64,000 nt of DNA, from positions 1 through 64,000 of the forward strand of contig CANJNY010000004.1 of assembly GCA_947475715.1 (NCBI GenBank), given 5' to 3'. The number at the start of each line of letters is the position of its first letter. Within the stretch, counting starts at the first letter, position 1. Made by a program: the position numbers and the translations under genes. This DNA is from Prolixibacteraceae bacterium. Lineage in GTDB: Bacteria > Bacteroidota > Bacteroidia > Bacteroidales > Prolixibacteraceae. The notes beneath the pieces were generated by a model that saw nothing but the letters and a program-made list of their open reading frames with translations, was not told the DNA's origin and searched no databases. Positions 57,330 through 63,850 of the stretch are shown here, piece by piece.

Positions 57330-60044
57330 ATGAAGCCTCTTCCAAATCTGCTTATTGTTGACGACCTGGTCGAAAACATCTACCTGTTGGAAGTAATTCT
57401 CAGGAAGGTTAAGGTTCGGCTCATTACGGCACTCTCAGGAGCAGAAGCTCTTGAGAAGACAAAGAATGTGGAACTGGCTTTGGCAATTGTTGATGTAAGA
57501 ATGCCCGTAATGGATGGTTTCGAGCTTGCATTACGGTTAAATCAAGACCGGGTTGGTGATAAAGTTCCGGTTATTTTCCTGACTGCCAGTAATTTCAATA
57601 AAACAGAAGTATTTCAGGGGTATGACTCAGGGGCAGTTGATTATATGTCGAAGCCCATTGACAATCATATTCTGCTTTGTAAAATCAATATATTCCTCGA
57701 TCTGTTTAATCAAAAGCAGACCATCATTCTTAATGGATTACAATTAAAAGCTACATCCGATGAATTGACAAGGGTGAATTCAGCCCTTAAAAAGAGTGAA
57801 CGAAGGCTCAGTGACATCATGTACAGCATGGCCGATTGGGTTTGGGAGGTAGATGAGAAAGGTATATATACGTATAGTTCGAAGCGGGGTTCTGATCTTT
57901 TGGGAGTTTCGCGGGAGGAGATTATCGGAAAGACGATGTTCGATTTTGTCCCTTCGGATGAAGTTGAGCGGGCATCGGTTATATTTTCGGAGATCATGTC
58001 CAGTAAAGCAGCAATTAAAGATTTTGAGAGCTGGAATATTGGAAAAAACGGGGAGCGGATCTGCCTTTTAACAAATGGCGTTCCCATTATTGATGAGGAG
58101 GGTAATTTTAAAGGTTACCGGGGTATAGCCAAAGATATAACAGAGCGCAAGTGTGCCGAAGCTGCACTTAAGGAGAGCGAAGAGAAATTCCGCTCAGTAA
58201 CACAATCAGCAAATGATGCCATTATTACTTCAGATAGTTCAGGAATTATAACAGACTGGAATGATGCCGCCGAAAAAATATTTGGTTATACCGAATTTGA
58301 GATTACCGGAAAAAATCTCTCTATTATTCTTCCCCTGCGTTTCCATCAGTTATATCTGGAATATATTGGAGAAAATTTAAAAAATAAGGAATTTGAAACA
58401 TTGTTTAAAACCTTTGAGATTAGTGGATTACGAAAAAACAAAGAAGAATTCCCATTAGAATTATCGCTGGCACAATGGGAAACAGATTCAGGACGGTATT
58501 TTACCGGCATCATTCGGGATATTACACGGCGCAAGCGAGCTGAGGAGGAGATAAAGCAGGCAAGCAACTTTTTGGACTCCATTATTGAGAATATTCCCCA
58601 TATGATATTTATTAAAGACGCTAAAAATCTAAGGTTTGTAAGATTTAACAAGGCAGCTGAGAATCTTCTTGGGATTGTAAAAGATGATATATTAGGCAAA
58701 AATGATTTTGACCTTTTTCCAAACAAGCAGGCTGAAGTTATTGTAGCTAAGGACAGAGAAGTGCTGGACAAAAGGGAGATGATGGTAATTAAAGCAGAAT
58801 CATTACCAACCAGGCACGATGGAATCCGGATCTTACATACCAAAAAAGTTCCCATCTTGGATGAGCAAGGTGTTCCCAAATATCTGCTCGGAATATCTGA
58901 GGATATCACAGAACAAAAGATGTCAGAGCAAGCGCTTAAAATAAGTGAGGAGAAATACCGGACGATGGTAAATAACTCCCCTGACGGAATTCTTCTTGTG
59001 AACATGAATGGAATAATAACAGAAGCTTCCGGAATAGGACTCGAACTGTTGGGAGCTGACAATAAGGAGGATCTGGTGGGTAAAAATTTTCATGCTTTTG
59101 TCCCTTCTGACGAGAACGATGCCATTAAAGATGTCTTTGAAAAGACAATGAATGATGGGATCTGCCAGAATTTTGAGATTAAAATCAGGAAGAAAAACAA
59201 ATCGATATTTTTAAGCGAAATAAGCTCAACACTAATACAGGATAACCAGGGGCAACCCATCTCGGTAATGATTGCGATCAGGGATATCTCCTTCAGAAAG
59301 AAATTAGAGACCAAACAGATCCATGCCGACAGAATGGCTAATCTTGGCGAAATGGCTTCGGGGATTGCTCATGAAATCAATCAGCCCTTAAACATTATTT
59401 CGATGGTAATGGATCGGATCTTGTACGAAACCTCAAAAAATGAGGTGATAGATATCGAATTCCTCAAAACTAAATCAGATAAAATTTTTGAAAATATTAT
59501 CCGTATCCGAAATATCATTGATCATGTCAGGGCTTTTTCCAGAAGCCATGAAAATTTTGTATTAACGGCATTTGATATCAATAAAACCATTGAAAATGCC
59601 GTTTCGCTAATCTCTGAGCAATTCAAACATCTGGGAATCAAGTTATCCCTTGAGTTAAGTACCGAAATTCCACCCTTCGTGGGGAATACCTACAAATTTG
59701 AACAGGTAATTATCAACCTGCTTACCAATGCAAAAGATGCAGTAATGGAGAAGAGAACCAAACAGCAGGAATACTCTGAACCATCGATTACAATTAAAAC
59801 CGCATCTCATAAAAGAACAATAATTACCGAAATAATTGATAATGGGAGCGGTGTTAATGATGATATCATACATAACATCATGCTCCCCTTTTTCACCACC
59901 AAAGAGGAGGGGAAAGGGACCGGACTTGGATTGTCAATTTGTTATCAGATTATTAAAGAGATGAATGGAATTATTGATATTACCAGTGATCCTTTAATTG
60001 GAACAACAATTAAGGTGGTATTGAATATTCCAAACGAAAAATAA
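57330..60044 (+). CDS. Soluble hybrid histidine kinase with N-terminal receiver and four PAS domains
   Basis: 904 residues without membrane segments. Order: receiver domain (about 5-125, phospho-acceptor D55 in AIVDVRMP), PAS 1 (about 155-275), PAS 2 (about 285-405), PAS 3 (about 415-535), PAS 4 (about 545-660), HisKA with H681 (SGIAHEINQPLN) and HATPase with NLLTNAKDA, DNGSG and GTGLGLS. It senses an intracellular signal and passes phosphate to the response regulator encoded 2 bp downstream. The receiver at the N-terminus may take phosphate from another kinase, making the system a relay input. Confidence 0.95.
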   Translation: MKPLPNLLIVDDLVENIYLLEVILRKVKVRLITALSGAEALEKTKNVELALAIVDVRMPVMDGFELALRLNQDRVGDKVPVIFLTASNFNKTEVFQGYDSGAVDYMSKPIDNHILLCKINIFLDLFNQKQTIILNGLQLKATSDELTRVNSALKKSERRLSDIMYSMADWVWEVDEKGIYTYSSKRGSDLLGVSREEIIGKTMFDFVPSDEVERASVIFSEIMSSKAAIKDFESWNIGKNGERICLLTNGVPIIDEEGNFKGYRGIAKDITERKCAEAALKESEEKFRSVTQSANDAIITSDSSGIITDWNDAAEKIFGYTEFEITGKNLSIILPLRFHQLYLEYIGENLKNKEFETLFKTFEISGLRKNKEEFPLELSLAQWETDSGRYFTGIIRDITRRKRAEEEIKQASNFLDSIIENIPHMIFIKDAKNLRFVRFNKAAENLLGIVKDDILGKNDFDLFPNKQAEVIVAKDREVLDKREMMVIKAESLPTRHDGIRILHTKKVPILDEQGVPKYLLGISEDITEQKMSEQALKISEEKYRTMVNNSPDGILLVNMNGIITEASGIGLELLGADNKEDLVGKNFHAFVPSDENDAIKDVFEKTMNDGICQNFEIKIRKKNKSIFLSEISSTLIQDNQGQPISVMIAIRDISFRKKLETKQIHADRMANLGEMASGIAHEINQPLNIISMVMDRILYETSKNEVIDIEFLKTKSDKIFENIIRIRNIIDHVRAFSRSHENFVLTAFDINKTIENAVSLISEQFKHLGIKLSLELSTEIPPFVGNTYKFEQVIINLLTNAKDAVMEKRTKQQEYSEPSITIKTASHKRTIITEIIDNGSGVNDDIIHNIMLPFFTTKEEGKGTGLGLSICYQIIKEMNGIIDITSDPLIGTTIKVVLNIPNEK

Positions 60045-60046
60045 AA

Positions 60047-61438
60047 ATGGAGAAAAAGGAAAGAATAAAGATCCTGATTTTAGATGACGAGAAGCAGTTC
60101 ACGGAAGAGCTAAGCGGCTTCTTTGATGATTCTGAATATCAGGCATTTGAAGCAAACACTGCCAGCGAAGGCAAAAAAATATTGAGCAATCACGAAATTG
60201 ACCTCCTAATTCTGGATGTGAGGCTCCCCGGAGTCAACGGGCTTGATATTCTGAAAGAGGTGAAGATCCAATATCCCTCAATGGAAGTGATTATCATTTC
60301 TGCTCACGGTGACATGGATACCGTAATAAAGGCTATTCGACTTGGTGCATTCGATTATTTGCGCAAACCTTTCCGCTTTATCGATATTCAGATTGCAATT
60401 GAGCGAACCCAGAAATATCTTCAGATGCAACGGTTGCTCAAGCGGATGGAAGAGAAGAACTCCCTGATTTCCAAATCACTTGAAGAAAAAATTGACCGTC
60501 AATTTATTGGTGTCAGTCCGCAAATTCTCAAAGTATTTGAGCAATCAGTAACAGCTGCCCATTACCCTGATGCAAACGTGCTCATTACCGGTGAGAGTGG
60601 GACAGGAAAAGAGAACATCGCCAGAATTATTCACTATTCAAGTCCACGAAAAGATCATCTTTTGTGTGCTGTTAACAGCAGTGCAATTACCGATTCGTTA
60701 CTCGAGAGTGAATTCTTTGGTCACAAAAAAGGATCTTTTACCGGAGCCATCGCCGATAAGATGGGTTTTTTTGAAGTATGCAACAAGGGCACTTTATTCC
60801 TGGACGAAATTGCCGATATGCCTTTAAATCTTCAGGCCAAGCTTTTGCGTACCACCGAAGAGAAGGTGATTACACGGGTTGGCGATACAATCCCCATCCA
60901 TACTGATTTTCGGGTCATCTCAGCCACTAATCAGGATCTTGAAAAACTTGTCGATAAAAAGCAATTCAGACTGGACCTGCTGCACAGGCTAAATACCCTG
61001 CATATCCATATCCCCCCTTTACGCGAACGTCCAGATGATATTAAGCCGTTGCTAATCCATTTTGTTGAGATCTATTCAAATAAGTTTAATAAACCTGCTA
61101 TTCGAATCTCAAAAGAGGTATTTAATGTGCTTCAGAAATACGATTTTCCGGGAAATGTGAGGGAATTAAGGAATATGACCGAAAGGGCAATAATCCTTTG
61201 TAAAAGCAATTTACTTGAAGTCTCTGATTTTCCCATGAAAACAAATAAACCGGAATTTTCCAAACCGGATGATGACATGATTACTCTGAAAACCAACGAA
61301 ATGACAATGATTCACAAAGCTCTGAAAATCTGCAATTTCAATCAGAGCGCAGCCGCTGATCTGCTTGGCATAACCCGTGATGCCCTGATCCGCAAAATGA
61401 AAAAATATGATATTGCTGTCAGCAAAATCGATGAGTAA
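60047..61438 (+). CDS. NtrC-family sigma-54-dependent response regulator
   Basis: 463 residues. Receiver (about 6-120, D57 in LILDVRLPG), AAA+ sigma-54 interaction domain (about 155-390) with Walker A GESGTGKE, sigma-54 contact loop GSFTGA (usually GAFTGA) and Walker B LFLDEI, then a Fis-type HTH (about 420-455, NFNQSAAADLLGITRDALIRKM). It activates promoters recognised by sigma-54. A perfect such promoter lies about 460 bp downstream. Translation is coupled to the kinase gene by a 2-bp gap. Confidence 0.96.
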   Translation: MEKKERIKILILDDEKQFTEELSGFFDDSEYQAFEANTASEGKKILSNHEIDLLILDVRLPGVNGLDILKEVKIQYPSMEVIIISAHGDMDTVIKAIRLGAFDYLRKPFRFIDIQIAIERTQKYLQMQRLLKRMEEKNSLISKSLEEKIDRQFIGVSPQILKVFEQSVTAAHYPDANVLITGESGTGKENIARIIHYSSPRKDHLLCAVNSSAITDSLLESEFFGHKKGSFTGAIADKMGFFEVCNKGTLFLDEIADMPLNLQAKLLRTTEEKVITRVGDTIPIHTDFRVISATNQDLEKLVDKKQFRLDLLHRLNTLHIHIPPLRERPDDIKPLLIHFVEIYSNKFNKPAIRISKEVFNVLQKYDFPGNVRELRNMTERAIILCKSNLLEVSDFPMKTNKPEFSKPDDDMITLKTNEMTMIHKALKICNFNQSAAADLLGITRDALIRKMKKYDIAVSKIDE

Positions 61439-61488
61439 TCCCTCCGGGCGTTTATAAAGTCCCCAAACGGTTCAGAATATAATTTAGT

Positions 61489-61547
61489 AAAAGGGTGATC
61501 TGCGGAGTGTGTGTTACTTAAACATGCAGTCGATCACCTTTATTTTT
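61489..61547 (+). terminator. Probable terminator of the kinase-regulator operon
   Basis: AAAAGGGTGATC (61489-61500) pairs with GATCACCTTT (61532-61541) with one bulge, around a 31-base loop that may extend the stem (CTGC/GCAG). It is followed by ATTTTTG. Confidence 0.5.
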
Positions 61548-61740
61548 GTTGTAATTATCCTTCACTTATACTTCCTGTCATTGGCGGCAGTTGAAAAAAC
61601 AGACCTTTTTTTATGCATCTGCTTCAAAGAATCTAAAGGGTGCTCCAAAATGGTGGGTTGAAAATTCGAATTGTCGTTTATGTTTCACCTTACCCTTTAA
61701 AAATTGAGGTGAATTGGCAGTTTCAGACCTGGCTTATTTC

Positions 61741-61761
61741 CGCACACCTGTGCGTTTTTTT
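61741..61761 (+). terminator. Orphan rho-independent terminator
   Basis: CGCAC (61741-61745), loop ACCT, GTGCG (61750-61754), then seven T. It is about 300 bp after the regulator stop, beyond an earlier hairpin, and has no annotated gene in front. It could end a read-through transcript or a small RNA from 61550 onwards. Confidence 0.65.
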
Positions 61762-61769
61762 CAATTAGA

Positions 61770-61891
61770 ATTGCCTGATTATTAACTCAAGTAATTCACC
61801 CGTATTTTATTTTTAAAAATAATCAACCCCTTAATTCACTCTATTATTGCCTATTAGACTTTACTTTCAGTGCTAATTTTACTGATTATTA
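61770..61891. repeat. Direct repeats upstream of the sigma-54 promoter
   Basis: CTGATTATTA occurs at 61775-61784 and 61882-61891. ATTGCCTGATTA (61770-61781) has a close copy, ATTGCCTATTA, at 61846-61856. Such repeats 40-130 bp before a sigma-54 promoter are candidate binding sites for the NtrC-type activator. The copy at 61882-61891 abuts the -24 element and is less likely to be an enhancer site. Confidence 0.4.
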
Positions 61892-61896
61892 TTTTT

Positions 61897-61911
61897 TGGC
61901 CCGCTCTTTGC
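61897..61911 (+). promoter_or_regulatory. Sigma-54 promoter (-24/-12) for the downstream operon
   Basis: TGGCCCGCTCTTTGC fits the sigma-54 consensus TGGCNCG, 4 bp, TTGC with the invariant GG and GC at the correct distance. Transcription should start near 61923, giving a leader of about 70 bases before the ATG at 61994. The adjacent NtrC-family gene makes this a likely regulatory target. Confidence 0.8.
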
Positions 61912-61993
61912 CTTGTACCATTACAAATGAGATAAAATATTCCAGATCTTATTTTAAAACAGAATCGAACATACTCATCAGGAGATAAAAATT

Positions 61994-62209
61994 ATGAAAC
62001 TAGAATCAAAAGTACTCGATTATATCAATGAACATCTGCAAGGGGTAAGGATTTCCGATATGGAGGCTCCACTTGGTGAAAGCAGAATGATCCTTGGGTT
62101 CGTGGCAAAAAATCTAATTAACCAGGGGAAGATCGTAAAAATTGAAAATAGTTATTATCCAAATCATGTAACACACTTTAGCGGTCCGAAAAATTTACAC
62201 AGTCCATAG
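61994..62209 (+). CDS. Small winged-helix-like protein
   Basis: 71 residues with a winged helix-turn-helix pattern: SKVLDYINEHLQGVRISDME, then RMILGFVAKNLINQGKIVKIEN with a short wing and YYP end. This type of small protein is common in Bacteroidota. It is preceded by AGGAGA 8 bp before the ATG, an unusually good ribosome site for this phylum. It is the first gene after the sigma-54 promoter and may fine-tune the same operon; DNA binding is not shown. Confidence 0.75.
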   Translation: MKLESKVLDYINEHLQGVRISDMEAPLGESRMILGFVAKNLINQGKIVKIENSYYPNHVTHFSGPKNLHSP

Positions 62210-62368: not shown

Positions 62369-62941
62369 ATGAAAAATTCAATCGTTATTTTAGCAGTTGC
62401 CGCATTGATTGCCGGCTTTTCAGGAAAAACAATGGCTCAGGATAATGGAACTGCAGGACATGCAATCAATTACACGCTGCCTTCTATGCACATCATGAAT
62501 TTGCAAAATACTGTTGCGAAACCGGTTTTAACCTTTGCTGCACCTGCCACAGCCGGAGCAAAAATTGCCGCAGTAACCAATGAGCTTTCATGGATCAATG
62601 TCACCTCAATTATTACTACCGGTAAGACTAAAACAATCCAGGTTTCAAGAACAGGTACAATTCCGGCAGGAACAACCTTAACAGTTATCGCTGCTGCAGC
62701 TTCTGCAAATGGAAACGGCTCCTTTGGCACACCGGTTGGCACTGCGGTTGATGTAACTACGACCGGAACAGGTCAGGACCTGATTACCGGAATCGGAAGT
62801 TGCTGGACTGATGCAGGAGTTGGAATGGGTTATAAACTTACTTATAACTGGTCAGTTGATGCTGCATATGCAACAGGACTTGTCGCCGCAGCTTCCGCTA
62901 CAGCAGTTACACTTACCTATACAATTTCTGAAACGCTGTAA
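62369..62941 (+). CDS. Small secreted Ala/Thr-rich beta protein, putative surface or pilus-like subunit
   Basis: 190 residues with a signal peptide (cleavage after about A23, GKTMAQDN). The mature part is rich in Ala, Thr, Gly and Val and looks all-beta; it has one cysteine (GSCWTDAG) and ends VTLTYTISETL. The end is reminiscent of DUF4402 and WxL-type secreted domains, where ATLTYT-like last strands occur, but I cannot assign the family. It is followed by a chaperone-like protein, which suggests a secreted structural subunit. Confidence 0.7.
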   Translation: MKNSIVILAVAALIAGFSGKTMAQDNGTAGHAINYTLPSMHIMNLQNTVAKPVLTFAAPATAGAKIAAVTNELSWINVTSIITTGKTKTIQVSRTGTIPAGTTLTVIAAAASANGNGSFGTPVGTAVDVTTTGTGQDLITGIGSCWTDAGVGMGYKLTYNWSVDAAYATGLVAAASATAVTLTYTISETL

Positions 62942-63055: not shown

Positions 63056-63850
63056 ATGAAGGCTAAAAATATTCTTTTAATCGTTGTGATCTTAGGTTTA
63101 ATGCCTTTCAGGATATTAGCCGGCTTTGAAGTCGTCGGAAGCCTGACAAACAAATATGTCGCACAAAAAGGTGAAAGATATTCTGCAACCTTAAAAGTGA
63201 GAAACATCGGGGATACAGAACAGGAAGTAAAGCTTTATCTTCGCGATTATGTATTTGATTATCAAGGCGCTTCATTATACAATGAGCCAGGTACATTGAA
63301 ACGGTCAAACGCTACATGGATACAATACAGTCCTAAGACCATTTTTCTTAAAGGGAATGAGATCAAAGATGTACTACTGGAAATAAATGTTCCTCAGGGC
63401 GATTCCCTTTCAGGAACTTATTGGAGTGTACTTATGGTAGAAGGGGTGGGACAGATAGATCCAAGTTCTAAAGGACAATTAAGTATTAATGAGTCGGTTC
63501 GTTATGCAGTTCAGATCATTACCAATATTGGCAAAACGGGGACAGGACAGCTGGAATTTGAGAATCCAGGGATCGTAACCGATAATAATAAAACATATTT
63601 TGATTTTGTATTAATCAATACAGGTGAGCGATTGATTTCACCGGACGTTTCGATGGAGCTGTTTGATGAAACGACGGGGAATTCGTTAAAACTTTTAAAA
63701 GCCCCCAAAAATGGGATGTATCCGACCACTTCAACAAAATGGAGATTTTCGATGGACGGGATACCAACGGGAAAAAACTATAAAGCAATTATAGTTGCAG
63801 ATGGTGCGGGAGAGGATGTATTTGGACTGGAATACACCATAGCACTTTAG
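63056..63850 (+). CDS. Secreted Ig-like chaperone-type protein (DUF916-like)
   Basis: 264 residues with a signal peptide (cleavage after about A22). An N-terminal Ig-like domain (about 25-130) has the pattern GERYSATLKVRNIGDTEQEVKLYLRDYVFDY, then SGTYWSVLMVEG, like DUF916 and fimbrial-chaperone first domains. A second beta domain runs about 140-264. The basic cleft residues of classical PapD chaperones are not clearly seen. The likely partner is the small secreted protein just upstream. It has no membrane anchor at the C-terminus. Confidence 0.7.
   Translation: MKAKNILLIVVILGLMPFRILAGFEVVGSLTNKYVAQKGERYSATLKVRNIGDTEQEVKLYLRDYVFDYQGASLYNEPGTLKRSNATWIQYSPKTIFLKGNEIKDVLLEINVPQGDSLSGTYWSVLMVEGVGQIDPSSKGQLSINESVRYAVQIITNIGKTGTGQLEFENPGIVTDNNKTYFDFVLINTGERLISPDVSMELFDETTGNSLKLLKAPKNGMYPTTSTKWRFSMDGIPTGKNYKAIIVADGAGEDVFGLEYTIAL

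Follow-up and report, generated by a model that had tools for sequence, protein, structure and literature searches.

A probable sigma-54 switch with a candidate dyad enhancer upstream of a fimbria-like operon in Prolixibacteraceae

The described systems closest to the locus considered here are the kinase-regulator pairs of the NtrB/NtrC and PilS/PilR type, in which a -24/-12 site is combined with an adjacent kinase, a regulator composed of REC, AAA+ and Fis domains and an upstream dyad enhancer. A possible DNA-bending site between enhancer and promoter is a further common element. Candidates for all these elements are present in the window (the whole stretch of DNA analyzed, 64,000 nucleotides, contig C4:1-64000 of a Prolixibacteraceae genome), which differs by its own enhancer word, a fixed spacing of enhancer and -24 box (about 149 bp) and its own cargo. 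PilR drives type IV pilins, whereas the cargo in the window is a chaperone-usher-type operon.

Serratia sp. ATCC 39006 possesses an NtrC-family regulator, GvrA, and a sigma-54 gvpA1 promoter (PMC4982088). The same combination precedes gvpA in the loci of sister species of the window's host; in contrast to Serratia, the module of the sister species and of the window has its kinase-regulator pair before the promoter and also serves fimbria-like operons. As for Bacteroidota, -24/-12 promoters of the sigma-54 regulon were mapped experimentally in Flavobacterium psychrophilum, with surface functions among the targets (PMC9723704). Unlike the window, the targets listed there comprise chaperones, gliding and envelope genes and no chaperone-usher-type operons. 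A general role of sigma-54 in the cell exterior was argued (PMC3162934). Ushers and fimbriae are not mentioned in a survey of sigma-54 regulons from 2025 (PMC12316311), and none of the papers searched describes chaperone-usher-type operons under sigma-54 control in Bacteroidota.

The operon of the window resembles the alternate (class 5) chaperone-usher systems of the CfaA/CooC type, as well as the WxLIP/WxL proteins of Gram-positive cell walls, in the predicted folds of chaperone and usher and in the gene order subunit-chaperone-usher-subunit. It is distinguished from them by sequences that remain under all Pfam cut-offs, by its host (Bacteroidota, as judged by its relatives) and by CarboxypepD_reg-like C-terminal domains of the usher-like protein.

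Promoter, regulator gene and gene order in relatives

The features are collected in Table 1. The kinase gene ends 2 nt short of the regulator gene, the same order is found in the orthologous modules read, and the hybrid kinase is likely the partner of the response regulator. The latter possesses the complete set of NtrC-family elements, namely a receiver, an AAA+ domain with the G[AS]FTGA motif (GSFTGA at residue 229) and a Fis-type HTH whose recognition helix is LGITRDALIRKMKKY. In genome G080, the ortholog of the regulator gene (L194:961-2352 of the reversed contig, G080:C316) contains one in-frame TAG, which could reflect either a decaying gene or an assembly error. A second PAS-rich kinase is encoded directly after the fimbria-like operon (L009:11523-13607, contig C4 about 67522-69606).

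Table 1. Features of the proposed switch and of the operon behind it
Feature	Position	Strand	Basis or remark
Hybrid sensor kinase (REC, four PAS, HisKA, HATPase)	57330..60044	+	Pfam domains
NtrC-family sigma-54 activator (REC, AAA+, Fis-type HTH)	60047..61438	+	Pfam Sigma54_activat (E 9e-60), Response_reg, HTH_8
Probable enhancer (UAS-I) CGCACACCTGTGCG	61741..61754	.	palindrome, centred 149 bp before the TGG of the -24 box
IHF-consensus-like site AATCAACCCCTTA (weak)	61821..61833	.	between enhancer and promoter
Probable sigma-54 promoter TGGCCCG-CTCT-TTGC (TGGCCCGCTCTTTGC)	61897-61911	+	pattern match and orthologous position
First gene after the promoter, encoding a 71-aa probable winged-helix protein	61994..62209	+	conserved directly behind the site
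190-aa secreted pilin-like subunit	62369..62941	+	aligns with pilin-like proteins from 30+ loci
264-aa periplasmic chaperone-like protein	63056..63850	+	AlphaFold2 model, pLDDT 86.8
Usher-like 902-aa outer-membrane protein, then 170-aa pilin-like gene	contig C4 about 64054-67294, outside the window

The initial annotation had placed a sigma-54 promoter, matching the consensus at each defined position, in the only gap behind the NtrC-type gene. Both statements agree with the sequence: the site is present on the forward strand, and the gap in question is a region of 555 bp (61439-61993) between the regulator gene and the 71-aa ORF. The GG at -24 and the GC at -12 are 10 bp apart, which is the sigma-54 spacing. 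Compared with the stricter consensus YTGGCACG-N4-TTGCW, the site departs at two weak positions, having C for A in the -24 box and a C directly behind TTGC. The rpoN gene, whose absence had been named as evidence against the promoter, was found on contig C49 (Sigma54_DBD, E 7e-53).

Further TGGCNCG-N4-TTGC sites, from which a regulon was to be defined, do exist in the genome (G000, 315 contigs, 5.77 Mb), where 7 exact matches were counted vs 3 for the reversed control pattern; six of them lie inside ORFs, however, and the site of the window is the only non-genic one. The pattern TGGCAYN5TTGCW gave 11 matches in the same genome, and all nine placeable ones are inside ORFs. Very probably, the site at 61897-61911 is a genuine sigma-54 promoter; transcription is predicted to start at about 61923, 12 nt past the GC.

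Orthologous modules were found with the 71-aa protein and the regulator as queries against the family. The order kinase-regulator-site-71-aa gene recurs in them, and the site is located 97 nt before the ATG in the window, 85 nt in L042/L174, 96 nt in L194 and 91 nt in L193. The same order with a weaker -12 box is observed in L195, L196 and L198 (site 61-82 nt before the ATG), so that orthologous sites lie 61-97 nt before the 71-aa gene; in some orthologs the -12 box is TTGA/TTGT instead of TTGC.

In many Prolixibacteraceae, a TGGCAY-N5-TTG(C/T)T site is found 84-97 nt before the ATG of the leading pilin. A site score of at least 14.5 was reached by 14/73 leading pilin genes, 0/34 trailing ones and 2/332 other ORFs, counts that come from related loci and do not constitute a probability. 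In the leaders of Draconibacterium-type pilin operons (L045, L049, L060, L064, L065, L072 and others), a hairpin follows the -12 box and precedes the pilin ATG; it varies in sequence with the pairing kept (GTATCC..GGATAC, GTAG..CTAC, GCATC..GGTGC) and has a GACC/GGACGC loop.

Two Desulfobacterota/Deltaproteobacteria contigs encode a related regulator (42% identity) just upstream of an operon of the same type. In both, a perfect TGGCACATAARTTGCT is located after the regulator and before a small Fis-like HTH gene, for which the called start is not the same in the two contigs; another perfect site precedes pilins, chaperone and usher. The stand-alone Fis-type HTH gene between the two perfect sites (L131:5464-6061, L141:5422-6119) occupies the position that the 71-aa gene has in the window.

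Probable enhancer palindrome and the site of activation

The palindrome of Table 1, situated 16-29 nt upstream of the stretch described in the initial annotation and missed there, is likely the enhancer of the adjacent regulator. A de novo dyad search in seven orthologous gaps returned CGCACA-N2-TGTGCG, and 0/200 shuffled sets scored as well. The distance from the enhancer centre to TGG is exactly 149 bp in five loci (the window, L202, L203, L204 and L206) and 147-151 bp in most others, some of which have a second copy 12 bp further.

The dyad word and the regulator helix covary across loci. UAS-I (CGCACANNTGTGCG) accompanies the helix ITRDALIRK and also LGISRDALIRK, and UAS-II (TACGCATTTTCGCGTA) accompanies IHRDALSRK. 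Loci with LGIHRDALSRK regulators are devoid of UAS-I and carry TACGC(A/G)TTTTC(G/A)CGTA centred 159-161 bp before TGG (8/8). With fixed criteria, UAS-I was detected in 8/10 ITRDALIRK-type loci vs 0/8 of the IHRDALSRK type, and UAS-II in 8/8 of the latter vs 0/10 of the former; the match rates in shuffled sequences were 1/3000 and 0/2400, respectively. The corresponding Fisher values (0.001 and 2e-5) overstate certainty, because the motifs were counted on the sequences used to define them and the loci are related; the counts are descriptive and do not represent an independent test. The pairwise footprint of the window and L042 revealed no common upstream element, since the recognition helix of L042 differs, and the remaining gap was not alignable.

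The exact palindrome occurs twice in 5.77 Mb. The second copy is part of a repeat hairpin and has no promoter, which points to a regulon that consists of a single operon. None of the other genomic CGCACANNTGTGCG sites (0-1 mismatch) has a convincing promoter site at 149 bp, and 4/5 of them lie in GTAGAGACGCAC..GTGCGTCTCTAC repeat hairpins. This palindromic repeat, the core of which resembles the enhancer word, is scattered in the genome (G000:C3:90639, C28:24117, C30:7149, C84:12156) and is also present in L194.

Alternatively, the sigma-54 promoter could be real while its activator binds AT-rich direct repeats, the palindrome being a mere terminator of the kinase-regulator operon. The palindrome of the window is followed by a run of seven T and scores as a terminator-like stem too. 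The repeated words pointed out in the initial annotation are also present in the gap (CTGATTATTA at 61775 and 61882, ATTGCCTGATTA at 61770 and ATTGCCTATTA at 61846). However, an exact direct repeat of at least 10 nt was found in 243/1000 dinucleotide shuffles of 61439-61896, and none of the words recurs in the orthologous gaps; as activator sites, the AT-rich repeats were rejected as chance-level and unconserved. The terminator reading is opposed by the distance from palindrome to promoter, fixed at 147-151 bp while regulator gene and promoter are 155 to >1100 bp apart. Moreover, the palindrome lacks the T-run in L194, stands in tandem 12 bp apart in other loci and tracks the recognition helix. 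This alternative is considered unlikely.

Between enhancer and promoter, the weak IHF-like site of the window has its equal in 118/2000 shuffles (6%), and none was found in the L042 ortholog; a perfect IHF consensus near the promoter is present in 7/30 other family loci vs 0.4 expected. In L045, L049 and L065, TTGGCAY words recur before the -24 box, at distances of about 11 and 45 nt, and an IHF-like TAANNNNTTGATA is located between these words.

That an NtrC-type regulator other than the adjacent one, either distant or paralogous, activates the promoter seems still less probable. Other genera have a similar pilin promoter with no close relative of the regulator next to it, and the genome would encode other proteins of this class, judging from the scored candidates. 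Yet the regulator is always adjacent in the window and its orthologs, and it is the helix of this adjacent regulator that covaries with the enhancer. A chance consensus match with the operon read from an ordinary promoter is hardly credible: the genome-wide enrichment is modest (7 sites vs 3), and sigma-70-type look-alikes are at background level in a scan that excludes the primary promoter type of Bacteroidota, but the position is conserved in orthologs, the activator gene is adjacent and the enhancer distance is fixed.

It is, in our judgment, highly probable that the sigma-54 promoter is real and that its cognate activator is encoded next to it. The earlier proposal of a promoter beside its likely activator is well supported by conserved synteny, position and covariation of helix and enhancer. 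Comparison of the loci brings out the predicted promoter, its position and this covariation. We are likewise confident that kinase, regulator, palindrome, promoter and fimbria-like operon compose a self-contained sigma-54 switch. In such a switch, the kinase would phosphorylate the NtrC-type regulator, which could bind the palindrome via the helix ITRDALIRK, loop over about 150 bp and remodel RNA polymerase-sigma-54 at the promoter. Transcription would then proceed from near 61923 through the 71-aa winged-helix gene into the chaperone-usher-type operon, the products of which could form a fimbria.

Fimbria-like and gas-vesicle cargo

The stand-alone 71-aa form matched no Pfam or NCBIfam family. 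The 190-aa subunit also aligns with the 170-aa secreted protein encoded behind the usher. The model of the 264-aa protein has a PapD-type two-domain fold, with WxLIP as the best PDB match (Z 16.9), followed by CfaA (Z 13.9 over 197-198 residues) and FimC (Z 12.8). For the 902-aa protein (pLDDT 80.6, pTM 0.47), the top 12 Foldseek matches are all FimD/PapC, with E from 3e-16 (FimD, the best) to 1e-10. With a second aligner the barrel alone aligns, the Mtr-complex barrel outscores the usher (Z 20.8 vs 16.9) and unrelated barrels also score well. Curated Pfam cut-offs are not reached by CooC_C (20.0 bits vs 29, the 902-aa protein) or WxLIP_PGBD (14.6 vs 27.3), and a family-profile sequence search of PDB gave no informative match. 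On the strength of the predicted structures, the operon is called chaperone-usher-type (fimbria-like), and its product would form fibres. The chaperone is present in 41/140 family genomes; the named relatives possessing it are Prolixibacteraceae (Draconibacterium, Maribellus, Mariniphaga and Tangfeifania).

In sister species, the orthologous regulator (71-81% identical), enhancer and promoter are followed by gvpA and a gas-vesicle operon, in which Pfam identifies GvpA, GvpF/L, GvpK and an HSP20 protein. These loci include same-genus species (L203/L243, L206/L244 and L204). In the window genome and in G080, gvpA is absent, the query protein finding 18 relatives. Fimbria-type operons encode the 71-aa domain as a stand-alone protein, whereas in gas-vesicle operons it is the C-terminal part of a coiled-coil protein of 390-450 aa; coiled-coil proteins ending in this winged-helix-like domain were observed in L178-L190 and at L243:6103-7389. 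A third kind of cargo, DUF4402 pilins, is found in genus g3 and in G020, in the latter with another chaperone-like and usher-like protein.

The position of orthologous modules before gas-vesicle operons in sister species indicates that the cargo was exchanged at least once. In the regulator tree, gas-vesicle-linked and fimbria-linked regulators form one clade (support 100/100). A single fimbria-linked group inside the core clade is not rejected (p 0.13), and only one cargo switch is therefore claimed.

The promoter itself is of a known, ordinary kind; what is new is the exchange of cargo. This exchange, between gas vesicles and fimbriae, is worth following, as are the precise geometry of the enhancer and the pairing of helices with enhancer words. 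What began as a consensus match is now a circuit that can be tested and has a defined enhancer, and the natural pairs of helix and enhancer word (I and II) could serve as a handle on the DNA code of NtrC-family regulators. Sigma-54 control would be extended to chaperone-usher-type operons in Bacteroidota, and the cassette is a case of retained regulation with a changed output, gas vesicles having given way to fimbria-like genes or vice versa. The chances are about even that a portable sensor-regulator-enhancer-promoter cassette of Prolixibacteraceae swapped gas vesicles and adhesive fimbriae, the same winged-helix domain being carried with both, in which case one signal would lead to floating in some species and to attaching in others.
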